A stretch of 64,000 nt of DNA from Reticulascus tulasneorum. Its lineage: Eukaryota > Ascomycota > Sordariomycetes > Glomerellales > Reticulascaceae. A program made the position numbers and the translations under genes. The stretch covers positions 496,001 through 560,000 of the forward strand of contig LSAX01000012.1 in NCBI GenBank assembly GCA_001557505.1. Reading direction: 5' to 3'. The notes beneath the pieces are model-generated. The model was given only the letters and a program-made list of their open reading frames with translations, was not told where the DNA came from and searched no databases. Shown here in pieces: positions 1 through 64,000 of this stretch (position 1 is its first letter; each line of letters begins with the position of its first letter).

Positions 1-1
1 C

Positions 2-3000
2 ACCGAGGACATCGGCAAACTCCTCACACAGCACGGCTTCCACCTCGTTGCGTGGGGCCACCCGTTCGGATACCGGCTTGCTTCTGGGTGCGATCTCGGC
101 TTTTCGAGCAAGCTGTTTCCGGTCGACCTTACCATTTGCATTAAGCGGCATCTGGTCTAGCACGATGATCCGAGCTGGGACCATGTACGATGGGAGCAGA
201 GCCTGTAGGTGCTCGCGAATCTGTGACTCGACCTGACGACCTTGTAGTCGCTGCAGTGGTCGGTTTGTGAGTGGGCCTGATGGCCGGGCGTGGCCGTCAG
301 TTGGAAACTGGAGTAGGACACGGGCGCCTTCTGGTGCGGGTGGATAATGATGGAAGACGGCATCGAGGGCGCCGTTCTGGTGCCTCTGCCGTGCCCAGCT
401 GATCTCCACACGGAATCCAGTTTCCTCGCCGACCTGCACGAGATCAGTTGCGGAAAGTGACGTGCAGCGACCGGCTGCATCGCGGACGGCCGACAGCCAG
501 GCTTCCCCGTCTAGCAAGCTCTGTGGATTCTCTCTGCCGCTGCCGTCGTCTTCTAGCGACTTGACAGTGTGATGTTCTATAATAGTCTTGCTATAAGGGA
601 TGTTGCCGACAGCGACGGCCTGTGCACCTGAAGAATTACGCAAAAGATGAAGCAGTTCCTTGCGGTCCATTTTGGCCAGTTCAAAGTCGACCCAGGCGTC
701 TGCTTCGATGGAGTGAACGGGTCGCGCTTGTTCTCCTGGACCCCGTATGTGCACGACGGCCGCGTAGCGGTAAGAGCTAAGCTCGTTCGTCGCTATCATT
801 CTCTTCGGCAGAATCTCGACGTGCTCGACATGACCAGACATCCGACTTGTTAGCCCTGTGAAGAAGGCTGGATCGACGAGCAGCTCTTCCTCACGTTCTT
901 CCAATTCTGCCATCTTTTGTCGGACACCATCTTTCGTCGCCTTTCTGCCTAGCGTATGTAGGGCCCTGGATGCGAGAAATTGCCTGTTGATTGCGTGGGA
1001 CCGCATGTCGCCGAAGAAGAGGCGTTTGACGCCTGGTATCTTGGCGAGGACGTCAATTACGTCAAACAAGTACTCCGGCGTGGGGAAGTACTGTGCCACG
1101 GAGTTGATCACCACCAAGTCTGGTCGAAGCCCCTCCAGCCGAGCCACGTCCATTGCTGTGCCGACGTGTATTTCGGCCTTGCTGGCAAGAGCCGGGATGG
1201 ACTTGATCGCGTCGGCGACGAACGTGGCCGCCGACCGTGAGGGCTCAAGGCCTACATAGCTCTGCAGCCCCTTGCTTCTCCCTAAATTGAAGAGCATCAT
1301 GCCCGTGCCGGTGCCGATTTCGAGCACATGGCCTGGTGGCTGGCTGTCCAGGAGCGTGTGCATAGTGTCGTCGAGCCACTCTCGCATCTCGCTCTTGTCA
1401 ATCGCGGTGCCGTCATACATGGATGTCCAGCCCATAAAGTCATTACCAATGGCAGAATCGCCGATGTCTTTAATGTCTGCATATGTGCTTGTCTCGAAGT
1501 GGTTCCCCCACCCTTCCACTTGGCTGCCGGCCTCGGCGTGCTCGAAGGACTCGTTGGCACTGGCTGCGACAAAGCCGACCATTTCCGGCCCCTGACCCTC
1601 TTGCATCCTGATAACCACGGCGGCGTCGCGCACAGCATCGTGGCGGAGCATGGCATGCTCCACCTCGGCCGGCTCAATGCGGTAGCCCCGGATCTTAATC
1701 TGCTGGTCCATGCGGCCAAAGAACTCGATCTGGCCGTCCTTGGGTCGGTACCGCACACGATCGCCCGTCCTGTATGCCCGGACGGATTCTCCGCTGATCG
1801 TCACCTGCACGAATCGGCCATAATCCAGGGCCTGATCCGTGTATCCTCGAGCCAGCCCATCTCCTGTGACGACCAACTCGCCCATCACGCCAAGAGGCAC
1901 GAGTTGCTGCTGTGGATCCATGATATAAGCACCGGAATTGCTCACGGCCTGCCCAATAGGAACTCCGTTCACATATGACTCGTCCTCCTCGATGTTATGG
2001 ATTGTACTAAGGATTCCGTTCTCAGTTGGGCCGTACGCATTGTAGACGCCGGTTCCAACGAGAGCTTGTGTCTGAATAGCGTCGCGTCTGTCAAATCGGT
2101 CGCCGGCAGCAAAGATAACATCTAGAGCACCGATTGCGGCAGGGATATTGGCCAAGCATTGCTTGAGCAGGGCTGGCGGAAGCATGGCCGCGCGGATCTG
2201 CTCCTGCGCAAACACAGCCTCGAGACTGCTGCTGTCTAAGGTGGTAAAATAGTCAATACATACCAGTGTCCCGCCGTTGAGCAACGGCGTATAGATCTCC
2301 CACATGGCGATATCAAATGCGATATTTGACAGATGCGCTACACGAGCTGATGCCGGCATCTTGGACACTACATTGCTTGTTTTCACGAGTCGTACAACGC
2401 TACGGTGCTCGACCATGACGCCCTTAGGCTTACCTGTTGATCCAGAGGTGAAGATGACAAATGCAAGACTTGTCGCGGAAGGTCGTGCGTCGGTGTCTGT
2501 GGTATCACCTGTAGTTGTAACTCCATGAATAGGATCATTTGGTTCGTGATGGCTTAAAGTATCCCCGATCCGGAGTAGCTCGACATCTGTAATCTTGATT
2601 CCTGGCGCTGGTACATCGGGGCCGAGCAGGACAAGCTTGTGTCCCTCAATGGAGGACAAGATGGCTTCGATACGAGCAGCCGGAACATTGACGTCGAGCG
2701 GTAGATAGGCGAGGTTCGCCTTGAGGATGCCGAAGAAGGCGACGATTGTCTGGCACGACCGAGGTGCCAGCACTCCAACAAGTGTCTCGGCTGCCATGTG
2801 CCGTCGGCGCAGCCATCTAGCTACCTCGTCTGATTCTCTATCCAGCTGGGCATAGGTAAGCCTCGAAGATGTGTCAGTGACGGCGATTGCGTCCGGACAA
2901 GCGGCGACCTGCTCTCGGAAGACTTCAACTACGCTAGACTCGCGAGGGTAGTCAGTGCGATCAATGTCGAGCAGCCCCATATCACGAAGCGCCGTCAGCC

Positions 3001-4345
3001 CTTGTGTGAGCGGTAGGGTCGCTATCGGCGCGTCAGGCTGATCGAGGGCCCGGCGTAGCACCTCTTGAAACACGGTGACCATGTTGCGGACCGTGTCGGG
3101 GTCGAAAAGGTCTGTCGCAAAAAGGACGCTGCCGCCGAGACGACTCGGCTCCTGGAATAGGTGGAACTCCAGATCAAACCGAGTCGATGCAGCTGACAAT
3201 ACTGGCTCTCCTAAGGCGCCCTCCAGTTGGATTTTACCAAGGTCTTGTTGAGAGTGTAGAGCAAACATGAGCTGTACCAACGGGTTCCGGGACGTGTCCC
3301 TTGACCCGGGGAGTAGTGCTGACACTATACGTTCGAAGGGCACGTCTTGGTTAGCAAATGCAGCTGTCGTTGTAGATCGAACCTGGCGTATTAGGGTTTC
3401 GAATGTATCGTCACTGTCGACAGTGATGCGCATGCATTGGGTGTTGACGAAGAAACCAATCAGATTTTCTAGCTCGGGCCGATTCCGGTTGGCGATGGGC
3501 GTACCAATGGTGGCGTCCTCAGAACCGGTAAGACGATAGTGAGTTGCGCGGAAGGCGGCGAGAAGCACGGCGAATGAGGTCGTCTGGTGGACTCGGCAGA
3601 ATGCTCGGAGGTTCTCGTATAGTGAACCGTCAATGACGAGCTGGACAACGCCGGCATTGCCAGACAGGACAGTCGGTCGTGGCAGGTCAGTGAGAAGCTC
3701 AGCGGGAGAGCTGTCGGCCAACTGTGTTGTCCAATACTCAAGCTGGCGCTCGTGCTCGGCCACCTGCTCGGCCTGCTTCTGCCACACGGCAAAGTCGCGG
3801 TACTGGATCGGAAGCGGGCTCACCTGCGACAGAGGATCGTGGCCTCGAAGGGCGGCAGCATAGAACTGATCCAGATCTTGCCGCAGGATATCGATAGACC
3901 AGCCATCGGAGATGATGTGGTGCATAACAATAGAGAGAATGTGGTCGTCATTTCCAAGTCGCAGCAGTGACACTCGCCACCCTGGTTCGGACGCCAGATC
4001 GAAGGGAGTGGTCTGTTCGTGCTGCAGCGACTGAAGGTAGCCGCCGTCTTGGTCGGTAGGCACATCGATCACTCTCAATCTTTCTGTGAGGCGCGAGTGG
4101 ACAACTTGGATGCCTACACCGTCCAGCTCTTCAAATGTGGTGCGGAGCGGCTCATGTCGCTGCTCTAGAGCAAGCACCGCAGAGGTAAGGGCTTCGATGC
4201 GAAGGGGTCCACGCATGCGCACCGCGAGCGGCATGAGATACCACGACGCACCGAGGTTGAGCTGATCCAGAAACCACAATCGGCCCTGGGCAAATGACTG
4301 CTCAACAGGTCCGGAGTATGGCGTGGGGAGGATGGGGCTGTGCGG
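2..4345 (-). other. Module w16: C-A-MT and start of T; N-methylated Val-like residue, cut by the window edge
   Basis: This is the last module before the edge. The C domain (about 2985-4345) has HHIISDG at 3902-3922. The A domain has [10 protein letters not shown] near 2418-2448, FDIAMWE at 2300-2314 and [10 protein letters not shown] near 2014-2046. The MT (about 255-1560) has LEIGTGTG at 1298-1324. A10 NGKVDRK lies near 130-155. Only the first residues of the T domain (ending EEFADVLG) are inside; the LGGHSL site lies beyond position 1. The code DIWMFAAILK is the w15 code with I at 236. Whether this is the last module before a cyclizing C domain or is followed by more modules cannot be seen. 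Confidence 0.93.
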
Positions 4346-7300
4346 TGTCGAACCGCGCCGGATGACAGCGGCGAGATCGGCGAGGACGGGCTGGTCGAAG
4401 ACGTCTTTGACCGACACACGAGCATCTAGCCGACGACTGATGCGGGCCGCAAGCTTCGTGGCCATGAGGGAGTGCCCGCCGAGATCAAAGAAGTTGTCGG
4501 TAACGCTGACCTCGACGCCGAGGACGTCAGCAAACTCCTCGCACAGCACGGCTTCCACCTCGTTGCGTGGGCCTACTCGTATAGATACCGGCTTGCCTCT
4601 GGGTGCGGTCTCAGCTTTTCGAGCAAGTTGTTTCCGGTCGAGCTTGCCATTTGCATTAAGTGGCATCTCGTCTAGCACGATGAGTTGAGCCGGGACCATG
4701 TAGGCGGGGAGCAGGTCCTGAAGTCGATGGCGGACCTGCCTTTCTACGAGCGTGTCAAAATGTTCTCGACTTTCTCGCTGGGCAATGAACTCATCCCGCC
4801 CGACAAGACTATCACTTTGTACCTTGATAAAGCCAACCAACTCCGGGCCCTGGTCGTCTTGCAGCCGGACAACAACGACAGCATCTCGCACTATATCGTC
4901 GCCGAGCATGGCATGCTCCACCTCGGCTGGTTCAATGCGGTGGCCGCGGATCTTGATCTGCTGATCCATGCGGCCAAAGAACTCGATCTGGCCGTCCTTG
5001 GGTCGGTATCTCGCGCGATCGCCTGTCCTGTATGCCCGGACGGTTTCTCCGTTAATTGTCACCTGCACGAATCGGCCAGAATCTAAGGCCGGATCTGTGT
5101 ATCCTCGCGCAAGCCCATCTCCCGTGACCACTAGCTCCCCCATCACACCAATAGGGACGAGTTGCTGCTGCGGATCCATGATGTAAGCGCCGGAATTGCT
5201 GACGGCCCTCCCAATGGGAACACCATTCACATATGGCTCATCCCCCTCAATGTTATAGATGGTACTAAGGATCGCGTTCTCAGTCGGACCGTACGCATTG
5301 TAGACGCCGGTTCCAACGAGAGCTTGTGTCTGGATCGCGTCGCGTCTGTCGAATCGATCACCAGCGGCGAAGATGACATCTAGGGCGCTGATTGTGGCAG
5401 GGATATTGGCCAAGCATTGTTTGAGCAGGGCTGGCGGAAGCATCGCCGCGCGGATTTGTTCCCGTGCGAACACAGCCTCGAGGCTGCTGCTGTCCAAGGT
5501 GGTAAAATAGTCAATGCATACCAGCGTCCCGCCGTTGAGCAACGGCGCGTAGATCTCCCACGTGGCGGCATCAAACGCAATGTTCGACAAATGCGCTACG
5601 CGAGCCGCTGCCGGCATCTTGGACACTACATTGCTTGTTTTCACGAGGCGCACAATACTGCGGTGCTCGATCATGACGCCCTTAGGCTTACCGGTCGATC
5701 CAGAGGTGAAAATGACATATGCAAGACTTGTCGCGGAAGGTTGTGCGACGCCGTCTGTGATATCATCTGTAGTGATAACCCCATTACTGACATCATTTGG
5801 TTCATGACGACTCAAAGTATCCCCGATCCGAAGCAGCTCGACGTCTGGACTCTCAATATCTGGTAATGTTACGTCCGGGCCGAGTAGGACAAGCTTATGT
5901 CCGTTAACAGCCGACAAGATGGCTTCGATACGAGCAGCCGGAACATTGACGTCAAGAGGTAGATAGGCGAGGTTCGCCTTGAGGATGCCGAAGAAGGCCA
6001 CGATTGTCTGGCACGACCGAGGTGCCAACACCCCGACAAGTGTCTCGGCTGCCATGTGCCGTCGGCGCAGCCATCTAGCTACCTCGTCTGATTCTCTATC
6101 CAGCTGGGCATAGGTAAGCCTCGAAGATGTGTCAGTGACGGCGATTGCGTCCGGACAAGCGGCGACCTGCTCTCGGAAGACTTCAACTACGCTAGACTCG
6201 CGTGGGTAGTCGGTGCAATCAATGTCGAGCAGCCCCATATCACGAAGCGCCGTCAGCCCTTGTGTGAGCGGTAGGGTCCCGATAGGCGCATCAGGCTGAT
6301 CGAGGGCCCGGCGTAGCACCTCTTGAAACACGGTGACCATGTTGCGGACGGTGTCGGGCTTGAAAATGTCTGTCGCATAAAGTACACTGCCGCCGAGACG
6401 AGCCGGCTCCTGGAATAGGTGGAACTCCAGATCAAACCGAGTCGATGCAGCTGATAGTATAGGCTCTCCTAAGACGCCCTTCAGTTGGATGTTGCCGAGG
6501 TTTTGTTGGGAGTGTAGAGCAAACATAAGCTGTACTAATGGGTTCCGGGACGTGTCCCTTGACCCGGGGAGTAATGCTGACACTATGCGTTCGAAAGGGA
6601 CGTCTTGGTTGGCAAATGCAGCTGTCGTTGTAGATCGGACCTGGCGTATTAGAGTTTCGAATGTATCATCACTATCGACGGTGATGCGCATGCATTGGGT
6701 GTTGACGAAGAATCCAATCAGATTTTCTAGCTCGGGCCGATTCCGGTTGGCGATGGGCGTACCTACGGTGGCGTCTTCGGCACCGGTAAGACGATAGTGG
6801 GTGGCGCGGAATGCGGCGAGAAGCACGGCGAATGAGGTCGTCTGGTGGACTCGGCAGAATGCTCGGAGGTTCTCGTATAGTGAACCGTCAATGACGAGCT
6901 GTACGACACCAGCATTGCCAGACAGGACAGTCGGCCGTGGTAGGTCAGTCAGAAGCTCGGCCGGAGAGCTGTCGGCCAACTGTGTTGACCAATACTCAAG
7001 CTGGCGCTCGTGCTCGGCCACCTGCTCGGCCTGCTTCTGCCATACGGCAAAGTCGCGGTACTGGATAGGAAGCGGGCTCACCTGCGACAGAGGATCGTGG
7101 CCTCGAAGGGCGACAGCATAGAACTGATCCAGCTCTTGTCGCAGGATATCCAATGACCATCCGTCATAGATGATGTGATGTATAACGATGGAGAGGATGT
7201 AGTCTTCATTTCCAAGTCGCAGAAGTAACACCCGCCACCCTGGTTCGGACGCCAGATCGAAGGGAGTGGTCTGCTCATGCTGCAGCGACTGGAGGTAGCC

Positions 7301-10300
7301 GCCGTCTTGGTCGGTTGGCACGTCGATCACTCTCAATTTCTCTGTCAGGCGTGAGTGAACAACTTGGACGCCGACGCCGTCCCGCTCTTCGAATGTGGTG
7401 CGGAGCGTCTCGTGGCGCTGCTCCAGAGCGAGAACCGCAGAGGTAAGGGCTTCAATGCGAAGCGGACCGCGCATGCGCACCGCGAGCGGCATGAGATACC
7501 ACGACGCACCGAGGTTGAGCTGATCCAGGAACCACAATCGGCCCTGGGCAAATGACTGCTCAACAGGTCCGGAGTATGGCGTGGGGAGGATGGGGCTGTG
7601 CGGTGTCGAACCGCGCCGGATGACAGCGGCGAGATCGGCGAGGACGGGCTGGTCGAAGACGTCTTTGACCGACACACGAGCATCTAGCCGACGACTGATG
7701 CGAGCCGCAAGCTTCGTGGCCATGAGGGAATGCCCGCCGAGATCAAAGAAGTTGTCGGTGACGCTGACCTCGAGACCAAGTATGTCGGCAAACTCCTCAC
7801 ACAGCACGGCTTCCACCTCGTTGCGTGGGGCCACCCGTTCGGATACCGGCTTACTTCTGGGTGCGATCTCGGCTTTTCGAGCAAGCTGTTTCCGGTCGAC
7901 CTTACCATTTGCATTAAGCGGCATCTGGTCTAACACGATGATCCGAGCAGGGATCATGTACGATGGGAGCAGAGCCTGTAGGTGCTCGCGAATCTGTGTC
8001 TCGACCTGGCGGCCTTGTAGCCTCTGCAGTGGTCGGTTTGTGAGTAGGCCCGATGGCCGGGCGTGGCCGTCGGTTGGAAACTGGATCAAGACACGGGCGC
8101 CTTCTGGTGCGGGTGGATAATGATGGAAGACGGCATCGAGGGCGCCGTTATTGTGCCACTGGCGGGCCCAGCTGATCTCTACACGGAATCCGGCCTCTTC
8201 GGCAACCTGTACGAGGTCGGTTGCAGACAGCGACGCACATCGGCCTGCTTTATTGCGGACGGCGGAGAGCCAGGCTTCCCCATCTAGTAGGCTCTGTACA
8301 TCGTCTCTATTGCTGCCGTCGTCATCTAGCGACTTGATAATATGGTTCTCTATCATAGTCTTCCTATAAGGGATGTTGCCGACTGCGACGGCCTGAGAGC
8401 CTGGGGACTTCTGCAGAAGATGAAGGAGTGCCTGGCGGCTCATCTTGGTCTGTTCAAAGTCGACCCAGGCGTCTGCTTCGATGGAGTGCACATGTCGAGC
8501 TTGTTCTTCTGGACCCCGTATGTGTAATACGGCCGCGTAGCGGTAAGAGCTAAGCTCGTTCGTCGCCATCATTCTCTTCGGCAGAATCTCGACGTGCTCG
8601 ACATGACCCGCCAGCCGACTTGTTAGCCCTGTGAAGAAGGCCGGATCGACGAGCAGCTCCTCTTCACGTTCTTCCAATTCTGCCATCTTCTGCCGGACGC
8701 CAGCTTTTGTTGCCTTTCCGCCTAGCGTATGTAGGGCCCTGGATGCGAGAAACTGCCTGTTAATTGCGTGGGACCGCATGTCGCCGAAGAAGAGGCGCTT
8801 AACGCCTGGTACCTTGGCGAGGACGTCAATTACGTCAAACAAATACTCCGGCGTGGGGAAGTACTGTGCCACGGAGTTGATCACCACCAAGTCTGGTCGA
8901 AGCCCCTCCAGCCGAGCCACGTCCATTGCTGTGCCGACGTGTATTTCGGCCTTGCCGGCAAGAGCCGGGATGGACTTGATCGCGTCGGCGACGAACGTGG
9001 CCGCCGACCGAGAGGGTTCGAGACCTACGTAGCTCTGTAGCCCTTTGCTTCTCCCTAAATTGAAAAGCACCATGCCGGTGCCGGTGCCGATTTCAAGCAC
9101 GTGGCCAGGGGGCTGCCCGTCAAGGAGAGCATGCATAGTGTCGTCGAGCCACTCTCGCATCTCGCTCTTGTCAATCGCGGTGCCGTCATACATGGATGTC
9201 CAGCCCATGAAGTCACTACCAATGGCAGAATCGCTGATTTCTTTAATGTCTGCATATGTGCTTGTTTCGAAGTGGTTCTCCCACCCTTCCACCTGGCTGC
9301 CGGCCTCGGCGTGCTCGAAGGACTCGTTGGCACTGGCTGCGACAAAGCCGACCATTTCCGGCTCCTGATCATCTTGCATCCGGACAACTACGGCAGCATC
9401 ACGTACAGTGTCGTGGCGGAGCAAGGCATGCTCCACCTCGGCTGGCTCAATGCGGTGGCCGCGGATCTTGATTTGCTGATCCATGCGGCCAAAGAATTCG
9501 ATCTGGCCGTCCTTGGGTCGGTACCGCACACGATCGCCCGTCTTGTATGCGCGGACGGATTTTCCGTTAATTGTCACCTGCACGAAGCGGCCATGGTCTA
9601 AGATTGGATCCATGTATCCTCGAGCAAGCCCATCTCCCGTGACGACTAGCTCGCCCATCACGCCAACGGGGACAAGTTGCTGCTGAGGATCCATTATATA
9701 GGCACCAGAATTGCTCACGGCCCTCCCAATGGGAACACCGTTCACATGTGACTCATCTTCTCCAATGTTGTAGATCGTACTGAGGATTGTGTTTTCGGTC
9801 GGACCATACGCGTTGTAGACGCCAGACCCAACAAGGGCTTGCGTCTGGATCGCGTCGCGTCTGTCGAATCGATCTCCGGCGGCGAAGATGACATCTAGAG
9901 CGCCGATTGTGGCAGGGATATTGGCCAAGCATTGTTTGAGCAAGGCTGGCGGAAGCATGGCCGCGCAGATTTGTTCCCGTGCAAACACAGCCTCGAGGCT
10001 GCTGCTGTCCAAGGTGGTAAAATATTCAATACATACCAGCGTCCCGCCGTTGAGCAACGGCGCGTAGATCTCCCACGTGGCGGCATCGAACGCAATGTTG
10101 GACAAATGCGCTACGCGAGCCGCTGCCGGCATCTTGGACACTACATTGCTTGTTTTCACGAGGCGCACAATACTGCGGTGCTCGACCATGACGCCCTTAG
10201 GCTTACCGGTCGATCCAGAGGTGAAAATGACATATGCAAGACTTGACGCGGAAGGTCGTGCGACGGCGACTGTGGCATTATCTGTAGTTGTAACTCCATT

Positions 10301-55300: not shown

Positions 55301-58300
55301 CATGCGACCAAAGAATTCGATCTGGCCGTCTTTGGGTCGGTACCGTGCGCGATCGCCCGTCCGGTATGCCCGAACAGACTCTCCGTTGATCGTCACTTGC
55401 ACGAAGCGTTCATGATCGAGGGTAGGATCTGTGTAGCCCCGAGCGAGCCCGTCTCCGGTGACCACCAGCTCGCCCATCACGCCAACAGGAACTAGATACT
55501 GCCGCGGATCCATGATGTAGGCACCAGAATTACTCACGGCCCGCCCAATGGGAACGCCGTTCACGTATGTCTCATCCTCTTGAATATTGTAGATCGTACT
55601 CAGGATCGCATTCTCGGTTGGGCCGTATGCGTTGTAGACGCCGGGTCCGACGAGCGATTGCGTCTGGATCGCGTCACGTCTGTCGAATCGATCGCCGGCA
55701 GCGAGGACGACATCTAGAGAACCAATTGTAGCAGGGATATTGACCAAGTACTGCTTGAGTAATGCGGGTGAAAATATGGCTGCATTAACCTGTTCTCTCG
55801 CAAACACGGCCTCGAGAGCTTTACTGTCCAAGGTAGTAAAATAGTCGATACAAACCAATGTTCCACCATTTAGGAGCGCTGCAAGCATTTCCCAGATTGA
55901 TACGTCGAAGGCCATATTAGTCAGGTGCGCCATTCGAACTACGGGCGGTAGTCTTGATGCAATATTACTATTCTTCACAAGCCGAAGAATTGCACGATGC
56001 TCTATCATAACACCTTTAGGCTTGCCGGTCGATCCAGATGTGAAAAGGACATATGCCAGGCTTGTAGCGGAGGGTAGTAAGATGGCGTCTGTGGTATCAT
56101 CTGCAGTTGTAGCTCCATTGGTAACACCATTTGGTGCGTGATGGCTTAAAGTATCACCGATCCGCAGCATTTCCACGTCCGGAATCTGGATATCTGGCAT
56201 TGGTACATCAGGGCCGAGCAAGACGAGCTTATGTCCCGCAACAGCTGATAAGATGGCTTCGATACGAGCCGCCGGAACATTGACGTCAAGAGGTAGATAG
56301 GCCAGGTTCGCCTTGAGGATGCCGAAGAAGGCCACGATTGTCTGGCACGACCGAGGCGCCAACACCCCGACAAGTGTCTCGGCTGCCATGTGCCGTCGGC
56401 GCAGCCATCCTGCAACCTCGTCGGATTGTCGGTCCAGCTGAGAATAGGTAAGCCGGGAGGATGAGTCGGTGACGGCGATCGCGTCAGGACCAGCAACCAC
56501 CTGCTCTTGGAAAACTTCTACCACGCTCGACTCTTGTGGGTAGTTGGTGCGCTCAATCTCGAACAGCCCCTTATTGCGATAATCTGTCATTCCGTCCGCA
56601 AGCGGCAGTGCGGCGATCGGCGTGTGAGGCTCGTCAAGGGCACGGCCTAGCACCTTCTGGAAGATAGCGACCATGGCCTGGATGGTCTCGGGCTCGAAGA
56701 GGTCTGTCGCGAAAAGTATGCTGCCGCGGAGACGACCGACTTCCTGGAACAGGTGGAACTCTACGTCGAACCGAGTCGATGCCGCTGCCGCCACAGGCTC
56801 TCCCACTACGCCCTCTAACTGGATTCTCCCGAGGTCCTCTTGCGAATGAAGAGCGAACATCAGCTGTACCAACGGGTTCCGGGACGTGTCTCTCGATCCG
56901 GGAAGGAGTGCCGACACGATGCGTTCGAAGGGCACGTCTTGGTTGGCGAATGCGGCCGTCGTTGTAGATCGGACCTGGCGCATCAATGTTTCGAACGTTT
57001 CGTCGCTGTCGATACTGATACGCATGCACTGGGTGTTTACGAAAAAGCCAATCAAGTTTTCCAGCTCAGGTCGATTCCGGTTGGCGATGGGCGTACCAAT
57101 GGTGGCATCCTCGGCACCCGTGAGGCGGTAGTGGGTTGCGCGGAATGCGGCGAGCAGCACGGCGAATGAGGTCGTCTGGTGGACTCGGCAAAAGGCCCGG
57201 AGTTTCTCGTACAGCGGGCCTTCAATGGCGAGCTGGACGACGCCGGCGTGGCCAGATACCACGTTTGGACGTGGAAAGTCGGTCAGAAGCTCGGCGGGAG
57301 AGCTGTCGGCCAACTGTGTTGTCCAGTACTTAAGCTGGCGCTGGTGCTCGGCCACCTGCTCGGCCTGCTTTTGCCACATGGAAAAGTCGCGGTATTGGAT
57401 GGGAAGCGGGCTCACCTGCGACAGGGGGTTGTGGCCTCTGACTGCGGCAGAATAGAACTGGTCCAATTCTTTGCGCAGGATATCAAGAGACCAGCCGTCA
57501 GATATGATGTGATGCATGACAATAGAGAGAATGTGGTCGTCATTTCCTAGCCGCAGCAGTGATACTCTCCACCCCGGCTCGGACGTTAGGTCAAATGGAG
57601 TGTTCTGCTCTTGCTGCAGCTTCTGGAGATAGCCTTCGTCTTGCTCTTCCAGCACGTCGATCACCCTCAACTCCTTTGTTTGGCTCGCCTGAACGACTTG
57701 CATACCGACACCGTCCTGTTCTTGAAATGTCGTCCTTAGGGTCTCGTGGCGATGTTCCAGAGCAATCAAAGCTGTATTAAGGGCGTTAATATGAAGCGGT
57801 CCGTGCATGCGCACTGCAAGAGGCATGAGATACCACGATGCACCTAGGTTGAGCTGGTCTAGGAACCACAACCGGCCTTGAGCGAACGACTGCTCGACAG
57901 GTCCCGAGTATGTCGTTACAGGGATGGGACTGTGTGGATTCGAGTTGCGCCGGATGACGGCGGCGAGATCAGCGAGGACGGGTTGGTCGAAGACATCTTT
58001 GACGGACACGCGGGCATCCAGCCGTCGGCTGATGCGGGCTGCCAATTTTGTAGCCATGAGAGAATGTCCTCCGAGATCGAAAAAGCTGTCAGTGACACCG
58101 ACCTCGACGCCGAGGACGTCGGCAAATTCCTCGCATAGCATGGCTTCCACCTCGTTACGCGGGGCCACGCGTGCAGAAGGCGACGTCTCAGCTTTCGGCA
58201 CGGTCTGAGCTTTTCGAGCCAGCTCTTTCCGGTCGACCTTGCCATTTGCATTAAGGGGCATCTGGTCTAGCACTGTGATCCGAGCCGGGACCATGTACGA

Positions 58301-61300
58301 CGGTAGCATATTCTGCAACCTGTTGCGGATCTCTTTTTCAGTCTGCATTGCGAATTGTTCTTCCCAAGTTCCCAAATTCACCCCGCCGTGGTTCCGCTTC
58401 CAATTCTGCTCGACAAACTCGTCGGTGCGGACCACGACGAAAGCGAGCATTTCCGGCTCCTGATCACCTTGCAGCCGAACGACGACGACAGCATCGCGCA
58501 CAGCGTCGTGCTGGAGCATGGCATGCTCCACCTCAGCCGGCTCGATGCGGTGGCCCCGGATCTTGATCTGCTGGTCCATACGGCCAAAGAACTCAATCTG
58601 GCTGTCTTTGGGCCGGTACCGCACGCGATCACCCGTCCGATACGCTCGAACCAGCTTGCCGTTGATGCTGATCTGAATAAAACGGTCTTGTTCCAACGCC
58701 GAGTTCGTATACCCTCGAGCAAGCCCGTCTCCGGTGACGACAAGCTCTCCCATCACGCCAAGAGAGACGAGCTGCTGGCGCGGGTCCATGATGAATGCAC
58801 CGGAGTTACTGACAGCCTGGCCAATTGGAACCCCATTCACAAATGAATCACGGTCGCTAACGCTATATATCGTGCTAAGGATTCCGTTCTCCGTTGGACC
58901 GTACGCGTTGTAGACGCCAGACCGTACAAGTGCTTGCGCCTGGACTGCGTCGTGACTATCAAACCGATCACCGGCAGCAAATAGGACGTCTAAAAGACCA
59001 AGTATGGTTGGCATAATTGCCAGGCACTGCTTGATTAGGGAGGGCGTAAGTGTGGCTGCGGAGACTTGTTCTCGCACGAAAACATCGCCCAGAGCTTTCA
59101 TGTCAAGAGTGGTGAAAGAGTCGATGCAGACCAGGGTTCCTCCATTTAAAAGCGCGCCGTAGATCTCCCAGACTGACACATCGAATGCTATGCTCGTCAA
59201 ATGAGCCATCTTAACCCCCCTTGGCAGCTTGGATACGACAGTGCTCTTCCTCACGAGCCGTAGAATGCTACGGTGCTCGACCATGACGCCCTTCGGTTGG
59301 CCTGTTGAACCAGACGTAAATATGGCGTATGCAAGGGTTGTCGCAGAAGGTTCGAGGATAGCTGGAGAATCGACCGCACTAAAGTGACCCAGCGTATCGT
59401 CAATCTGCACTAGCTCCGTATCTGGAATCTCGACATCCGGAGCTGCTACGTCCTTGCCGAGCAGCACAAGCTTGTGTCCAGCGACAGTCGACAGGATCGC
59501 CCCGATGCGAGCTGCGGGAACATTAACATCCAGCGGCAAATAAGCCAGGTTCGCCTTGAGGATGCCCATGAATGCAACGACCGTCTGGCAAGACCGCGGC
59601 GCCAGCACGCCTATAAGTGTCTCGGCTTTCATGCTTCGCTGGCGTAACCAGACAGCCACCTCGTCTGATTTTCTGTCTAGCTCAGCATAGGTCAGCCGTT
59701 GCGATGAGTCCGTCACGGCTGTTGTTTCCGGGCATGCAGCCACTTGCTCGCGGAAGATATCAACCACACTCGACTCGCGAGGATAGTCAGTTCTCTCGAT
59801 GTCAAGCAGGCCCATACTGCGAAGCTCCGCCGTCCCATCGGTGAGCGGCATGGAAGTGATCGGCGTCTCGGGCTGGTCGAGCCCACGCCGTAGGATCTCT
59901 TGGAAGACAGCGACCATCCCCTGGATAGTCTTAAGCTCGAACAAGTCTGCAGCAAAGACAACGTTGCCGACCAGCCTCCCGGCCTCCTGGAACAGATGGA
60001 ACTCAATATCGAACCGAGTGGCTAACGTAGTTGGAATGGGTTCTCCCGTGACGCCCTCTAGGTGGATTTTCCCGAGATCCTGTTGAGAGTGCACGGCAAA
60101 CATGAGCTGCACCAATGGGTTTCGCGACGTGTCCCTCGATCCAGGAAGGAGAGCCGATACGATGCGCTCGAATGGCACATCTTGGTTAGCAAAGGCCGCT
60201 GCCGCTGTAGACCGAGTCTGCCGCACTAGTCCTTCAAATGTATCATCTTCTCCGACCGTAATACGCATACACTGAGTATTGACAAAAAATCCGATCATGT
60301 TCTCCAGCTCTGGCCGATTGCGATTGGCAATAGGCGTACCAATAGTCGAGTCTTCTGCACCCGTGAGGCGGTAGTGGGCTATGCGGAATGCTGCGAGCAG
60401 GGCCACAAAAGAGGTGACCTGATGTGCTCGACAGAATGCTCGAAGCTTCTCGTACACCGCGCCCTCGATAGCGAGCTGTACGACGCCTGCCTGACTGGAA
60501 AGCACGGTAGGCCGGGGTCGATCCGTCAAAAGCTCGGCTGGAGAGCTGTCGGCGAGCTGGTTGGTCCAGTACTCCAACTGTCGTTGATGCTCGGCCACCT
60601 GCTCATCTTGCTTCTGCCATAAAGCGAAGTCGCGGTACTGAATTGGAAGTGGCGCGACCTGTGATAGAGGGTCTTGACCACGGACTACGGCGTCATAGAA
60701 TAATCCCAGCTCTTGGCATAAGATATCTATGGACCAGCCATCGGCGATGATGTGGTGCATGACAATTGAGAGAATATGGTCGTCGTCCCCGAGCCGCAGC
60801 AGGGACACCCTCCATCCTGGCTCGGATGTCAGATCGAATGGAGTTGTCTGCTCCTGCTCTAGCACCTGGAGGTAGTTGTCGTTCTGGTCGGTGGGTACAT
60901 CAATCACCCTGAGCTCCTTGGTGGCGCTCGCTTGGATGACTTGCATCCCCACACCATCTTCCTCCATAAACCTCGTGCGTAGGGTCTCGTGGCGCTGCTC
61001 CAGAGCGTGCAGGGTAGTAGCGAGCGCGTCGGCGTGAAGCGCTCCGCGCAAGCGCACCGCGAGTGGCATGAGATACCACGTGGCTCCGAGGTTCATCTGT
61101 TCCAAGAACCAGAGGCGGCCCTGCGCAAACGACTGCTCAATAGGTCCCGAATTCGCGGTTGAGCGGATTGCCTTATGCGGAGCTGAGCCTCTCAGAATTG
61201 TGGCTGCGAGATCGCCAAGCACCGGATGGTCGAAGACTTCTTTGACAGACACGTGTGCATCAAGCCGACGGCTAATGCGTGCCGCAAGCTTTGTCGCCAT

Positions 61301-64000
61301 GAGTGAGTGACCGCCGAGATCGAAGAAGTTATCTTCGATGCCGACCTCGACTCCGAGAATATCGGCAAACTCCTCGCATAGTGATACTTCAATCTCGTTG
61401 CGAGGGGATATGATGGTGCGTTTGCCTCTATTCTTCCCTGTTCCTAGTGCAAGCCGCGATAGAGCCCGGCGGTCCACCTTGCCGTTAGTATTAAGTGGCA
61501 TCTGCTGAAGCACAATGATCCTCGATGGAATCATGTATGTCGGCAGAATAGTCCGTAGTGTAGTGCGCAAGTTATCCTCGATACTAGCTTCTAGATGTGC
61601 CATCTTAACTTCGCCGTCGTCCTGCTCTTCTGGCTGATTAGGTTCTCCCACATGGTTGGCACCTTTTCGACTAAGTGGTACAACACTAGTGCCCTCTCTT
61701 ACTGTTATGAAGCTAACGAGCTCCATATCCTGTTGTTCAGTCTCGTTCTGCTTCAATAGAGTAACCGCGTCTCTCACAGCGTTATGCCTGACTAGCACAC
61801 GCTCTATCTCTGCCGGCTCAACGCGGTGGCCTCGAACCTTTACTTGAACATCCATACGGCCATAGAACTCTAAGTAAGCGTCCTTCGATCGATACCGGAC
61901 GCGATCGCCTGTTCGGAACGCCCTTACCGGCTTTCCATCCACGATCACCTGTACGAAACGGTCTTGGTCGAGCTCCGGGTTTGTGTACCCTCGGGCAAGC
62001 CCGTCGCCAGTCACAACAAGCTCGCCCATAACGCCGAGGGGAACAAAACGCTGCTGTGAATCCATCACATATACCCCTGAGTTATTAATAACGCGACCGA
62101 CAGGCACGCCATTAGCGCACGAAACATCAGGAGTTACTCGGAAAAAGGTCGTTAGGATTGAGTTTTCACTCGGACCATAGCCATTAAACACAGCCATTCT
62201 TACTAGGTCTCTGGTCTTAGCTGCATCTCTCGGTGGGAACCGATCTCCAAGAACATAGACTGCATCAAGTTGACCTACAGCCTGGGGGGCTTGGTCGAGG
62301 ACTCTGGTCAGCAAGGCAGGCGTGATCATTCCGACCCGGACACCCTCCTGCTTAAAGATATGAGTGAGTTGCGTCGCATCTAGCGCCGCCATGGTGTCAA
62401 TGCAGACCAACTTATGGCCGTTGAGTAGCGCGGTACATATTTCAAATATTGACGGGTCAAAGGCGAGGTTTGTCATGTGGGCTACAGGTCCGTATGCCGG
62501 CCGTTGTTTGACGACGTTGACCAAGCTACGATGCGGTACCATAATTCCCTTCGGCTGGCCTGTTGAACCAGATGTGAAGATGACGTAGGCAAGGCTCGTT
62601 GCTGAAGGCTGCTCGGCGCTGTCTGCAATATCAACCGCCCCATGACCACCAACAGCATTGCCGATACGCACCAGCTCCACGTCCGGCACCTGAAAATCTG
62701 GAGCAGCTACGTCGTCGCCGAGCAGCACAAGCTTGTGTCCAGCGACAGTCGACAGGATCGCCCCGATGCGAGCTGCGGGAACATTGACATCAAGCGGCAA
62801 ATAAGCCAGGTTCGCCTTGAGGATGCCCATGAAGGCAACGACCGTCTGGCAAGATCGCGGCGCCAGCACGCCTACAAGTGTCTCGGCTTTCATGCTTCGC
62901 TGGCGTAACCAGACAGCCACCTCGTCTGATTTTCTATCTAGCTCAGCATAGGTCAGCCGTTGCGATGAGTCCGTCACGGCTATTGTTTCCGGGCATGCAG
63001 CCACTTGCTCACGGAAGATATCAACCACACTCGAATCGCGAGGATAGTCAGTTCTTTCGATGTCAAGCAGGCCCATACTGCGAAGCTCCGCCATCCCATC
63101 GGTGAGCGGCATGGAAGTGATCGGCGTCTCGGGCTGATCGAGCCCACGCCGTAGGATCTCTTGGAAGACAGCGACCATCCCCTTGATGGTTTCGAGCTCG
63201 AACAAGTCTGTAGCAAAGAAAACATTGCCCGCCAATCTTCCGGCCTTCTGAAACAGATGGAACTCAACATCGAACCGAGTGGTCACGGCAGTGGGTATCA
63301 GCTCCCCGGCCATGCCTTCTAACTGGATCTTGCCAAGGTCTTGTTGAGAGTGAAGAGCAAACAGAAGCTGCACTAGCGGGTTCCGGGACGTGTCCCTCGA
63401 CCCGGGCACGAGCGTTGACACGATGCGTTCGAAGGGCACGTCTTGATTGGCAAATGCGGCCGTCGTGGTAGATAGGACCTGCCGAATCAACGTTTCGAAT
63501 GTATCGTCGCTATCGATACTGATACGCATGCACTGGGTGTTTACGAAAAAGCCGATCAAATTCTCCAGCTCATGTCGGTTCCGGTTGGCGATGGGTGTAC
63601 CAATGGTGGCGTCTTCGGCACCCGTGAGGCGGTAGTGGGTAGCGCGGAAGGCGGCGAGCAGCACCGCGAATGAGGTCGTCTGGTGGACTCGGCAGAAGGC
63701 CTGGAGTTTCTCGTATAGGGGGCCTTCAATGGCGAGCTGGACGACGCCGGCATGGCCAGATACCACGGCTGGACGTGGAAAGTCGGTCAGAAGCTCGGCG
63801 GGAGAGCTGTCGGCCAACTGTGTTGTCCAGTACTCAAGCTGGCGTTGGTGCTCGGCCACCTGCTCGGCCTGCTTCTGCCACACGGCAAAGTCGCGGTACT
63901 GGATGGGAAGCGGTTTCACCTGTGACAGGGGGTTGTGGCCTCTGACTGCGGCAGAATAGAACTGGTCCAATTCTTGGCGCAAGATATCGAGAGACCAGCC
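2..64000 (-). CDS. Giant N-methylating multimodular NRPS (cyclosporin-synthetase-like), internal segment; both ends outside the window
   Basis: This is one uninterrupted reading frame of 21,333 codons with neither start nor stop in the window. It contains 16 elongation modules (C-A-T or C-A-MT-T), each expected to activate one amino acid as an aminoacyl-adenylate, load it on a phosphopantetheinyl carrier serine, N-methylate it from S-adenosylmethionine where an MT is present, and condense it with the growing peptide. Visible motifs are 15 LGGHSL carrier sites, 15 complete HHII(S/Y/A)DG condensation sites plus one cut by the edge, 16 adenylation domains with TSGSTG(K/Q/R/S)PKG and YGP(T/S)EN, and 10 MT domains with LEIGTGTG. 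All share one codon phase (lowest base = 2 modulo 3), so no intron or frameshift is indicated. The segment already exceeds cyclosporin synthetase (about 15,300 residues, recalled) and the 18-module peptaibol synthetase Tex1 (about 20,900, recalled). The family is certain; product and gene name are unknown. Confidence 0.97.
4346..7603 (-). other. Module w15: C-A-T, no methyltransferase; Val predicted
   Basis: The C domain (about 6235-7603) has HHIIYDG at 7160-7180. The A domain has [10 protein letters not shown] near 5675-5705, FDAATWE at 5558-5572 and [10 protein letters not shown] near 5270-5305. A10 reads NGKLDRK near 4635-4655. The T domain (4346-4570) has its serine at 4469-4471. The code DAWMFAAILK is Val-like. 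The A8-A9 linker (about 4720-4840) is short, with no MT. It lies between two methylating modules, so one secondary-amide Val is predicted between two N-methylated residues. Confidence 0.95.
7604..12118 (-). other. Module w14: C-A-MT-T; N-methyl-Val predicted
   Basis: The C domain (about 10755-12118) has HHIISDG at 11675-11695. The A domain has [10 protein letters not shown] near 10190-10220, FDAATWE at 10073-10087 and [10 protein letters not shown] near 9785-9820. The MT (about 8022-9350) has LEIGTGTG at 9071-9097. A10 NGKVDRK lies near 7890-7920. The T domain (7604-7830) has its serine at 7727-7729. The code DAWMFAAILK is Val-like. MT sequence is very close to that of w12 and w16, and the A core is very close to that of w15, which lacks an MT. 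Confidence 0.95.
12119..15394 (-). other. Module w13: C-A-T, no methyltransferase; pocket core shared with w8
   Basis: The C domain (about 14025-15394) has HHIIYDG at 14951-14971. The A domain has [10 protein letters not shown] near 13470-13500 and FDAATWE at 13349-13363, followed by the divergent core ([35 protein letters not shown]) at about 13060-13340. A10 lies near 12410-12440. The T domain (12119-12345) has its serine at 12242-12244. The code is DAWFLGVTFK. The A8-A9 linker (about 12500-12625) contains [14 protein letters not shown] and no MT. The sequence on both sides of the core is ordinary for this enzyme, so the core looks like an inserted subdomain. The substrate is not predicted. 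Confidence 0.93.
15395..19909 (-). other. Module w12: C-A-MT-T; N-methylated aliphatic residue
   Basis: The C domain (about 18540-19909) has HHIISDG at 19466-19486. The A domain has [10 protein letters not shown] near 17980-18010, FDVSIWE at 17864-17878 and [10 protein letters not shown] near 17575-17610. The MT (about 15820-17140) has LEIGTGTG at 16862-16888. A10 lies near 15690-15720. The T domain (15395-15620) has its serine at 15518-15520. The code DVWIFAAILK is the same as w10, so the two probably load the same residue (Val or Ile type), with and without N-methylation. The C-terminal half of the A domain and the T domain are very close to those of w11. Confidence 0.94.
19910..24394 (-). 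other. Module w11: C-A-MT-T; highly unusual pocket code (Q at 239, Q at 331)
   Basis: The C domain (about 23030-24394) has HHIISDG at 23951-23971. The A domain has [10 protein letters not shown] near 22500-22530, FDISVQE at 22379-22393 (Q where all other methylating modules have W), LFNVGDRF near 22185-22200 and [11 protein letters not shown] near 22100-22130. The MT (about 20325-21650) has LEIGTGTG at 21377-21403. A10 lies near 20205-20235. The T domain (19910-20135) has its serine at 20033-20035. The code DIQMFVAIQK is not one I can match to a known substrate. If the methylation pattern is aligned with cyclosporin synthetase, this module falls at the sarcosine (N-methyl-Gly) position; that is only positional. 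Confidence 0.92.
24395..27673 (-). other. Module w10: C-A-T, no methyltransferase; aliphatic code
   Basis: The C domain (about 26310-27673) has HHIISDG at 27230-27250. The A domain has [10 protein letters not shown] near 25745-25775, with S where most modules have K. FDVSIWE is at 25628-25642. The A5 region reads [16 protein letters not shown] near 25340-25385, with one extra glycine relative to the other modules. A10 lies near 24690-24715. The T domain (24395-24620) has its serine at 24518-24520. The code DVWIFAAILK equals that of w12, which does methylate. The A8-A9 linker (about 24780-24900) carries [13 protein letters not shown] in place of an MT, so an unmethylated aliphatic residue is predicted. 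Confidence 0.94.
29190..29394. repeat. 205-bp tract in the MT of w9 with no differences seen from 33675-33879 in the MT of w8
   Basis: I compared the two tracts base by base by eye. They match without a difference and end at mismatches on both sides (29189 versus 33674, and 29395 versus 33880). The tract codes for the N-terminal part of the MT just ahead of the SAM motif. Sequence on either side is similar but not the same, as expected for gene conversion or recent exchange. Confidence 0.88.
29909..30124. repeat. 216-bp tract in the A core of w9 with no differences seen from 42143-42358 in w6
   Basis: The tract covers the substrate-pocket region between A4 and A5 that holds pocket positions 278, 299 and 301. 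It matches w6 without a visible difference, bounded by mismatches at 29908 and 30125. w9 methylates and w6 does not, so the shared block is the specificity core only, not the whole module. Confidence 0.88.
33675..33879. repeat. Second copy (MT of w8) of the 205-bp tract at 29190-29394
   Basis: This is the partner of the tract in w9, 4485 bp away, which is the w8-to-w9 module period. Both copies are in the same codon phase. Confidence 0.88.
35289..35441. repeat. 153-bp tract at the C/A junction of w8 with no differences seen from 39780-39932 in w7
   Basis: The tract covers the end of the C domain, the linker and the first residues of the A domain, bounded by mismatches at 35288 and 35442. Copies are 4491 bp apart. 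Confidence 0.85.
36674..41164 (-). other. Module w7: C-A-MT-T; N-methyl-Val predicted
   Basis: The C domain (about 39800-41164) has HHIISDG at 40721-40741. The A domain has FDAATWE at 39149-39163 and [10 protein letters not shown] near 38860-38895. The MT (about 37090-38425) has LEIGTGTG at 38147-38173. A10 NGKVDRK lies near 36960-36990. The T domain (36674-36900) has its serine at 36797-36799. The code DAWMFAAILK differs from the recalled Val code DAWMFAAVLK only by I for V at 330. This module opens the stretch w7-w15 whose methylation order equals that of cyclosporin synthetase modules 3-11. The C/A junction shares a 153-bp tract with w8, with no differences seen. Confidence 0.95.
39780..39932. 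repeat. Second copy (C/A junction of w7) of the 153-bp tract at 35289-35441
   Basis: This is the partner of the w8 tract. It lies across the same C/A linker and in the same codon phase. Confidence 0.85.
41165..44392 (-). other. Module w6: C-A-T, no methyltransferase; Leu-like code
   Basis: The C domain (about 43025-44392) has HHIIYDG at 43949-43969, followed by L where all other copies have W. The A domain has FDAAIWE at 42377-42391 and [10 protein letters not shown] near 42085-42120. A10 lies near 41455-41480 and the T domain at 41165-41390, with its serine at 41288-41290. The code DAWLYGAVIK differs only at 331 from DAWLYGAVMK, recalled as the Leu code of cyclosporin synthetase. The A8-A9 linker (about 41545-41650) is short and charged, with no MT, so unmethylated Leu is predicted. 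Its substrate-pocket core shares a 216-bp tract with no differences seen with w9, which does have an MT. Confidence 0.94.
42143..42358. repeat. Second copy (A core of w6) of the 216-bp tract at 29909-30124
   Basis: This is the partner of the w9 tract, 12,234 bp away. Both modules read the same Leu-like code DAWLYGAVIK. Confidence 0.88.
44393..48910 (-). other. Module w5: C-A-MT-T; N-methylated aliphatic (Val-like) residue
   Basis: The C domain (about 47545-48910) has HHIISDG at 48467-48487. The A domain has [10 protein letters not shown] near 46985-47015, FDAATWE at 46865-46879 and [10 protein letters not shown] near 46578-46612. The MT (about 44810-46140) carries LEIGTGTG at 45863-45889. 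A10 lies near 44680-44705. The T domain (44393-44620) reads NLGGHSL rather than the usual DLGGHSL, with its serine at 44516-44518. The code DAWIFAAILK is one step (I at 278) from the Val-like code of w7, w14 and w15. MT sequence just before the SAM motif (near 45780-45930) is nearly the same as in w4. Confidence 0.94.
48911..53425 (-). other. Module w4: C-A-MT-T; N-methylated aliphatic residue
   Basis: The C domain (about 52060-53425) has HHIIYDG at 52982-53002. The A domain has FDVSIWE at 51380-51394 and [10 protein letters not shown] near 51085-51120. The MT (about 49325-50650) has LEIGTGTG at 50378-50404. A10 NGKVDRK lies near 49195-49225. The T domain (48911-49135) has its serine at 49034-49036. 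The code is DVWIFAAVLK (V at 330), close to the Val code DAWMFAAVLK that I recall for cyclosporin synthetase. The A-core is nearly the same as that of w3, suggesting recent duplication. The preferred residue is probably Val or Ile, delivered as the N-methyl form. Confidence 0.94.
53426..57937 (-). other. Module w3: C-A-MT-T; N-methylated aliphatic residue
   Basis: The C domain (about 56570-57937) has HHIISDG at 57494-57514. The A domain starts near 56570, with [10 protein letters not shown] near 56015-56045, FDVSIWE at 55892-55906 and [10 protein letters not shown] near 55600-55635. The MT occupies about 53840-55165, with its SAM-binding LEIGTGTGM at 54890-54916. It interrupts the A domain before A10 (NGKIDRK near 53720-53745). 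The T domain (53426-53650) has its carrier serine at 53549-53551. The code DVWILAAILK differs from the common aliphatic code by L at 299. It starts a run of three methylating modules. Like w4, w10 and w12 it has the [10 protein letters not shown] form of the pocket region. Confidence 0.94.
57938..61180 (-). other. Module w2: C-A-T, no methyltransferase; aliphatic-type code
   Basis: The C domain (about 59815-61180) carries HHIIADG at 60737-60757, the only copy with A at the fifth position, and overall it is the most divergent C domain here. The A domain (about 58165-59815) has FDVSVWE at 59168-59182 and [10 protein letters not shown] near 58890-58920. The T domain (57938-58165) has its LGGHSL serine at 58061-58063. 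The code DVWTFAAILK belongs to the aliphatic group of this enzyme, with T at 278. The A8-A9 linker (about 58330-58440) contains [14 protein letters not shown] where methylating modules have the MT, so the residue should be added unmethylated. The exact substrate (Val, Ile or another small aliphatic residue) is not certain. Confidence 0.93.
59456..59922. repeat. About 467-bp near-identical block of w2 shared with 62717-63183 of w1
   Basis: The block covers the end of the C domain, the linker and the N-terminal third of the A domain. I count about 13 mismatches by eye. Beyond it towards the pocket, w1 and w2 become very different, so the block has a sharp edge inside the A domain. Confidence 0.85.
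61181..64000 (-). other. Module w1: partial C - A - T, no methyltransferase; unusual pocket code
   Basis: This is the first module in the window. Its C domain (about 63080-64000) is cut: the edge falls on the G of HHxxxDG, so the catalytic histidines lie outside. The A domain spans about 61405-63080, with [10 protein letters not shown] near 62548-62578, the FDPSIFE pocket segment with key residues at 62444-62458, and the YGPSEN motif near 62165-62190. The T domain (61181-61405) has LGGHSL with its serine at 61304-61306. The pocket reads DPFMYLGILK, unlike every other module here: P at 236, F instead of W at 239, G at 322. The A8-A9 linker is a charged stretch of about 45 residues with no MT. 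It is the most divergent A core in the window, and its substrate is not predicted. The C domain resembles that of w3, while the first third of the A domain resembles w2. Confidence 0.93.
62717..63183. repeat. Second copy (w1) of the near-identical block at 59456-59922
   Basis: This is the partner of the w2 block, at an offset of 3261 bp, which is one C-A-T module period. Confidence 0.85.

Follow-up and report, generated by a model that had tools for sequence, protein, structure and literature searches.

The question raised by this locus was what could be encoded by a reading frame that runs without a stop through 64,000 nucleotides of fungal DNA, and where such a gene begins and ends. The stretch analysed (hereafter the window) is C4:496001-560000 of Reticulascus tulasneorum, C4 being contig LSAX01000012.1 (1.40 Mb) of the assembly GCA_001557505.1, which comprises 42.84 Mb in 35 contigs. 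Our results make it highly probable, as judged from sequence, that the gene encodes an intronless single-chain nonribosomal peptide synthetase (NRPS) of 18 modules that would make an 18-residue cyclodepsipeptide with 11 N-methylations, and that its length came mainly from duplication of modules within the gene. Translation of the minus-strand frame 2-64000 gave 21,333 codons with 0 stops, against 488 to 971 stops in each of the other five frames, which confirmed the giant stop-free frame reported in the initial annotation. That annotation had also placed both ends of the gene outside the window and proposed extension along the contig to find the start, the stop and the total number of modules. 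With the flanks included, the frame was open from C4:563741 to 489864 (24,626 codons) and closed by a stop at 489861-489863. Counted from the first ATG, at codon 10, the protein comprised 24,617 residues, for which a mass of 2,718,222 was calculated (~2.72 MDa), and the coding sequence was 73,854 bp, stop counted. The window holds codons 1248-22580, that is, the 16 modules in one phase claimed before, from module 2 (cut) to module 17 (cut), and neither the window nor the flanks examined contained an N. The claim that no intron is visible was borne out as well: the repeated modules showed regular domain spacing, and therefore no intron is needed. Divergence of the C+A region among 17 modules was 0.154, 0.092 and 0.410 at codon positions 1, 2 and 3, a pattern that fits a coding region evolving under purifying selection. 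Neither the Rfam scan nor the tRNA scan of the window gave a match.

Domain mapping with hidden Markov models built from the domains of the open reading frame (ORF) itself showed a single fungal NRPS frame, as first proposed, with 18 adenylation (A), 18 thiolation (T) and 17 canonical condensation (C) domains, and one divergent C domain at the C-terminal end. The motif HHxxxDG was present in all 17 canonical C domains, and GG(D/H)S in all 18 T domains. An insert of ~420 residues split the A domain between its core and its last segment in 11 modules. All 11 inserts contained the SAM-binding sequence LEIGTGTG, and Pfam methyltransferase (MT) models matched both inserts that were scanned. An identity of these inserts as epimerisation domains was ruled out by their location inside A domains and their match to methyltransferases. 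An MT within the A domain, found here in 11 of 18 modules, is the feature of the fungal N-methylating NRPSs (cyclosporin/CYCLO type), and assignment to this class is firm. The N-terminal region was a divergent C-like domain with a weak, partial Pfam Condensation match, and the C-terminal end was a C_T-like domain with a Pfam Condensation match and the motif SHALYDG, which we take to be the fungal C_T motif. Pfam detected no thioesterase, reductase or polyketide synthase (PKS; KS-AT) loader in the 1,000 codons at either end, and a terminal C-like domain without a thioesterase is the arrangement of hydroxy-acid-primed cyclodepsipeptide synthetases. The same domain order, with no KS-AT-ACP loader and no terminal reductase, ruled out a Tex1/TratS-type peptaibol synthetase. 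Such enzymes are alike in size and module number (Tex1 has 18), but the 11 N-methyltransferases also stand against this identity, whose probability is practically nil. Peptaibol synthetases are not known to carry out N-methylation.

Codons 1248-6247 (5,000 residues), used as a query against proteins, gave 448 scored candidates, 447 of them at E ≤0.001. Among the best 120, the top matches were fungal NRPSs, the first six with 49-60% local identity and including proteins of Elsinoe australis, Clonostachys solani, Colletotrichum higginsianum and Myriangium duriaei, while bacterial NRPSs stood lower, at about 30-36% identity. P0003 (Clonostachys solani, 7,901 aa) and P0002 (7,887 aa) had the layout and A1 type of the window gene and were 53-56% identical to it at the N-terminus and 54-55% at the C_T-like end. 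They differed in having 6 modules with 2 MTs and a sequence that runs on past the C_T-like end, and their precomputed domains include PF02558, of ketopantoate-reductase type.

The A1 domain stood apart within the ORF, being 26-29% identical to the rest, whereas A3-A18 were 63-90% identical to one another and A2 was 55-60% identical to them. Pocket codes were read by alignment to anchor motifs, with the last position, Lys517, assumed. The codes of A7 and A10 were identical, those of A9 and A14 nearly so, and a DVW(I/T)(F/L)AA(I/V)L-type code was found in modules 3, 4, 5, 11, 13 and 18. DAWMFAA(I/V)L is presumably a valine code, as in cyclosporin synthetase; a literature search on six code strings brought no confirmation and surfaced, in two papers, only DAWFLGNVVK, which is not among the codes read here. 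At the code positions tabulated in PMC11253843, A1 read GALLVAGSI, with Gly instead of Asp235. In enniatin synthetase, Gly occupies this position in A1, the domain that activates D-hydroxyisovalerate (PMC11253843), so that A1 of the window gene resembles the first A domain of enniatin/KK-1-type enzymes in lacking Asp235. The same Gly was present in the A1 domains of P0002, P0003 and P0006. Among the sister genes on C4 (described below), A1 was readable across the pocket in synthetases 2 and 4 alone, and both have this Gly.

In the mechanism we propose, module 1, composed of the divergent C-like region, the Gly-type A1 and a T domain, would load a 2-hydroxy acid. Modules 2-18, each working once, would add one residue each, mainly aliphatic amino acids, and modules 4, 5, 6, 8, 9, 10, 12, 13, 15, 17 and 18 would N-methylate their own residue in situ via the MT inserted in the A domain. 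The C_T-like domain would release the chain by attack of the starter hydroxyl, closing the 18-residue cyclodepsipeptide ring. The gene is presumed to be expressed and still in use.

Several observations weigh against this mechanism. The N-terminal C-like region lacks HHxxxDG, A-domain codes are poor predictors of fungal substrates and here carry an assumed last position, and the 24 PF02826 and 5 PF02558 matches in the genome all lie away from the window gene, so its starter supply is not explained locally. Genes for enzymes of hydroxy-acid-forming families adjoin three of the sister synthetases, an observation that counts for the proposed mechanism and, as these genes are not beside the window gene, also for its alternative. 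Synthetases 1 and 2 each have a D-2-hydroxyacid dehydrogenase family gene alongside, at C4:15.5-16.5 kb and 120.4-121.4 kb respectively, the second being oriented divergently from the start of synthetase 2. An ApbA/ketopantoate-reductase-type match (C4:307983-308360) precedes synthetase 5 by ~3 kb; of the sister A1 domains, that of synthetase 5 is most similar to the A1 of the window gene (76%). In Beauveria, the hydroxy acid is made through a ketoisovalerate reductase gene next to the synthetase (PMC10512319). A synthetase of the same class might instead use an amino-acid starter, give a linear product, or skip or reuse modules, and its product would then not be an 18-residue depsipeptide. 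SimA builds cyclosporin with D-Ala and has no racemase activity of its own (PMC3688495), and module skipping is known for tex2 (PMC11610996). This alternative appears unlikely, since the Gly at the Asp235 position is common to two sisters and three relatives, and the C_T-like end resembles that of P0002 and P0003, which share the layout.

The window gene is not alone on its contig. Whole-genome searches, which score the best candidates only and give lower bounds, detected at least 7 full-length A1-type domains, the gene's own and six at 67-76% identity, with others at 40% or less (85 matches scored of 159 candidates). At least 7 full-length C_T-type ends were also present, its own and six at 60-66%, with other full-length ends at 33% or less (52 matches; 89 of 108 candidates scored). 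These domains define seven synthetases on C4 (Table 1), and each of the six sisters has one A1-type start and one C_T-type end. Together they fill 353,559 nt of a 545,933-bp span (C4:17.8-563.7 kb). In five sisters the frame, of 13,015 to 22,758 codons, was uninterrupted from end to end, and synthetase 4 had an in-frame stop. The module total of the seven was estimated at 87 (canonical C domains plus one per gap >5 kb); only the 18 modules of the window gene were counted directly, and the other numbers come from at least 75 C matches listed. Among 59 MT matches, 49 were full-length and stop-free, and all of these lie in the seven synthetases. C4 starts with (CCCTAA)12 and has RPB2 near 1,364 kb, and the array is near one chromosome end (subtelomeric). 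In a protein search whose length range leaves out full-length RPB2 records, the 120 matches listed for this RPB2 included a metagenome protein at 87% identity and named proteins at 80%. An endosymbiont or bacterial contig was ruled out by (CCCTAA)12, the HET, NB-ARC/TPR and NDC10-type genes, the Ty1/copia-like ORF and RPB2; with RPB2 and other genes on C4, a dispensable chromosome is also unlikely.

Such an array could be breaking down, with the window gene silent or decaying and intact only by recency. The in-frame stop in one sister, the NRPS and MT remnants at C4:5.6-7.8, 12.5-13.1, 125.9-126.1 and 777-825 kb, and the retroelement-like ORF and HET/NLR-type genes around the window gene are consistent with decay. 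However, the motifs checked were intact, and in comparisons between modules the divergence at codon third positions was 2.7 to 4.4 times that at first and second positions; we consider this explanation improbable.

The similarity among modules indicated how the gene may have grown. The MT of module 4 was 79-87% identical to the ten others in the ORF, against 52-70% to the 38 in the six sisters. A C-domain tree of 49 domains, made by a quick method with only 8 domains from two sisters and with long branches flagged among the relatives, placed 16 of the 17 C domains of the window ORF in one clade (SH-aLRT 97) and 25 C domains of three synthetases in this genome in one clade (98), and paired the P0002 and P0003 domains by position (100). 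The module 3 C domain grouped with those of the sisters (85), and the six C domains from the 13,015-codon sister narrowly failed to form a separate clade. Because MT identities and C-domain clades favour the own ORF, the modules seem to have been amplified mainly within each gene. By this similarity, the window gene would have grown mainly by internal module duplication to become the longest in the seven-gene subtelomeric array.

A joining of shorter genes or repeated modules into a false frame by the assembly would also give a long array of similar modules. The DNA identity between modules over C+A (mean 78%, range 69-90.5%) is of the repeat type prone to misassembly, but the longest exact internal repeat was 275 bp, no frame slip occurred in 24,626 codons, and the frame has one start and one terminal domain, as does each of the six sisters, while a 7,901-residue relative has the same layout. 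An artefact is thus very improbable. There appears to be no sign of collapse or false expansion, although perfectly identical modules could have collapsed.

The A14 domain was scanned in 25-residue blocks against the A domains of its own ORF (minus A1, A2 and A9) and against A4 of P0002 and P0003, which carry the same or nearly the same code as A14. Block 276-300 was 41% identical to the own A domains but 60-64% to the relatives' A4. The contrast was weaker in blocks 226-275 (45-50% own, 52-64% relatives), and block 201-225 was likewise nearer to the relatives (88-92%) than to the own ORF (73%). The blocks flanking the pocket were 54-97% identical to the own ORF, and nearly all were closer to it. 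The pattern may be read as a homogenised backbone with older pocket cassettes in A14, a case that comes mostly from one block because, in the two weaker blocks, the remaining A domains also reach 48-53% identity to P0002 A4. Alternatively, selection for the same substrate might by itself have produced it. A wider scenario, possible but somewhat doubtful, is that one hydroxy-acid-primed ancestor gave rise to the seven genes, each resized (8 to 18 modules) by internal duplication and homogenisation with pocket segments kept or exchanged as cassettes, and that the window gene is the longest fungal NRPS gene reported and would make an unprecedented 18-residue, 11-fold N-methylated ring.

Table 1. 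Positions of the synthetase gene, its modules and its sister genes. Modules were located with the local models and are given in window coordinates unless marked C4; sequences in the last column are pocket codes.
Feature	Position	Strand	Details
Full NRPS ORF	C4:489861-563741, incl. stop	-	~3.7 kb beyond window upstream, ~6.1 kb downstream
ORF interior, codons 1248-22580	1..64000	-	0 in-frame stops; both ends located in flanks
Module 1 with N-terminal C-like region	C4:560.4-563.7 kb, outside window	-	GALLVAGSI
Module 2, C (cut by window edge)-A-T, no MT	61187..64000	-	DPFMYLGIL
Module 3, C-A-T	57947..61132	-	DVWTFAAIL
Module 4, C-A[MT]-T	53432..57889	-	DVWILAAIL; MT 53846-55126
Module 5, C-A[MT]-T	48917..53377	-	DVWIFAAVL; MT matched Pfam methyltransferase models
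Module 6, C-A[MT]-T	44399..48862	-	DAWIFAAIL
Module 7, C-A-T	41174..44344	-	DAWLYGAVI
Module 8, C-A[MT]-T	36680..41116	-	DAWMFAAIL
Module 9, C-A[MT]-T	32168..36625	-	DAWFFGVTF
Module 10, C-A[MT]-T	27683..32110	-	DAWLYGAVI
Module 11, C-A-T	24401..27625	-	DVWIFAAIL
Module 12, C-A[MT]-T	19919..24346	-	DIQMFVAIQ
Module 13, C-A[MT]-T	15401..19861	-	DVWIFAAIL
Module 14, C-A-T	12125..15346	-	DAWFLGVTF
Module 15, C-A[MT]-T	7610..12070	-	DAWMFAAIL
Module 16, C-A-T	4352..7555	-	DAWMFAAIL
Module 17, C-A[MT]-T, cut by window edge	1..4297	-	DIWMFAAIL
Module 18 and C_T-like domain	C4:489.9-495.8 kb, outside window	-	MT-bearing
Synthetase 1	C4:17809-70620	-	17,604 codons; ~14 modules; 5 MT
Synthetase 2	C4:80999-120043	-	13,015 codons; ~10 modules; 4 MT
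Synthetase 3	C4:130698-172046	-	13,783 codons; ~10 modules; 6 MT
Synthetase 4	C4:~222080-255577	-	7,600 + 3,565 codons, in-frame stop 244880-244882 between; ~8 modules; 5 MT
Synthetase 5	C4:311041-355746	+	14,902 codons; ~11 modules; 6 MT
Synthetase 6	C4:400716-468989	+	22,758 codons; ~16 modules; 12 MT
Synthetase 7 (window gene)	C4:489861-563741	-	18 modules; 11 MT; longest of seven

Further genes and remnants were present along C4. A highly reducing-type PKS gene lies in pieces on the minus strand at C4:469.2-477.7 kb, between synthetases 6 and 7; its segments matched Pfam KS, AT, DH, MT, alcohol-dehydrogenase-like and HR-PKS Rossmann domains, and KR was recognised by eye. A piece of an ABC transporter (PF00664) and a P5C reductase were found at C4 ~184.7-193.7 kb, and an FAD-dependent oxidoreductase related to fungal L-pipecolate/sarcosine oxidases lies between synthetases 1 and 2 (C4:75.0-75.9 kb). 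A flanking oxidoreductase had no match above 58% among the 120 listed. The 3' end of the window gene is ~1 kb away from C4:483480-488798, which by eye is a Ty1/copia-like retroelement with a 1,773-codon open frame. Upstream, C4:570-604 kb carries HET, NB-ARC/TPR and NACHT genes of the fungal NLR type, one with 17 TPR_10 stretches, and an ORF with NDC10_II and GCR1_C domains at C4:615.3-617.8 kb is possibly a Crypton-type element. Decayed remnants of the same synthetase ends were seen near the telomere and between synthetases 2 and 3 (C4:5597-7771, 12511-13120 and 125886-126113), including short C_T-type pieces with 52% identity at C4:5642-5821 and 49% at C4:125886-126113. Ten of the 59 MT matches, partial or stop-bearing and for the most part interrupted by internal stops, lie at C4:777-825 kb and C34:196 kb and are probably remains of further N-methylating NRPSs. 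Two further giant NRPS ORFs, of 10,248 and 11,406 codons (C4 ~637-667 and 693-727 kb), had no MT matches and belong to a different A-domain lineage.

The initial annotation had ranked the gene above those for cyclosporin synthetase and Tex1 and among the largest known fungal ORFs. Its 73,854 bp exceed simA (45.8 kb; PMC3688495), tex1 (~62.8 kb, 18 modules; PMC11610996), TratS (69.6 kb; PMC12547593), which at 21 modules has more of them, and a 52.5-kb gene of T. ophioglossoides encoding >17,000 residues (PMC4517408). The ranking thus holds against the genes found in print, in a comparison that is not exhaustive. A length record among fungal NRPS genes is not proven; the best 120 of the 448 protein candidates scored were 5,565-7,989 residues long and thus too short to serve as full-length comparators. 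Larger proteins occur outside fungi, such as titin and algal polyketide synthases. In the mostly open-access literature surveyed, no longer fungal NRPS or comparable paralogue array was met; nearest to such an array were several peptaibol-type NRPSs at chromosome ends in T. inflatum (PMC6367777). Beyond the initial annotation, the N-methylating, probably hydroxy-acid-primed subtype and the seven-gene array were recognised, and the size of single-chain fungal assembly lines found in print is raised to 73.9 kb and 2.7 MDa. With seven adjoining paralogues of 8 to 18 modules, module gain and substrate change in NRPSs become directly testable, since similarity within and between genes, and of pocket and backbone, can be read from one assembly and traced across strains.

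Among known systems, Tex1 and TratS are nearest in gene length and module number but differ in their PKS start and reductase end (PMC11610996, PMC12547593). Enniatin/beauvericin and destruxin-type synthetases have, as is probable here, a hydroxy-acid A domain of separate lineage fused to N-methylating modules (PMC3688495), but far fewer modules. P0026 (dtxS1, Cladobotryum mycophilum) was found with 6 A domains, and its Gly-type A domain occupies second instead of first place. Enniatin-type enzymes use their modules repeatedly. SimA is alike in an N-methylating module array grown by tandem duplication (PMC3688495, PMC2823734) and in a PKS in the region, the Bmt residue of cyclosporin being PKS-made (PMC3688495; PMC6168864); SimA differs in its 11 modules, 45.8 kb and D-Ala. 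Cyclosporin synthetase proper, with 11 modules and all amino acids, was rejected for the window gene, which has 18 modules and Gly at the A1 Asp235 position. The KK-1 synthetase KK1B of Curvularia clavata (10 modules, 5 nMT, 39,126 bp, D-lactate starter) is encoded in a cluster with an ABC transporter, a 2-hydroxyacid dehydrogenase and a P5C reductase (PMC10512319). Its first module takes a hydroxy acid, as predicted for the window gene, it shares the N-methyltransferase modules and the single large gene, and the three families of its cluster also occur in the C4 array. However, KK1B has its nMT domains in modules 3, 5, 6, 7 and 9, has 10 modules instead of 18 and 39,126 instead of 73,854 bp, and the KK-1 cluster contains one such synthetase against seven paralogues here. 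The 13,015-codon synthetase 2 is about the length of KK1B (13,041 aa), but carries its MTs in modules 4, 5, 7 and 10. The product predicted for the window gene would be a large N-methylated macrocycle in the class of cyclosporin and KK-1.

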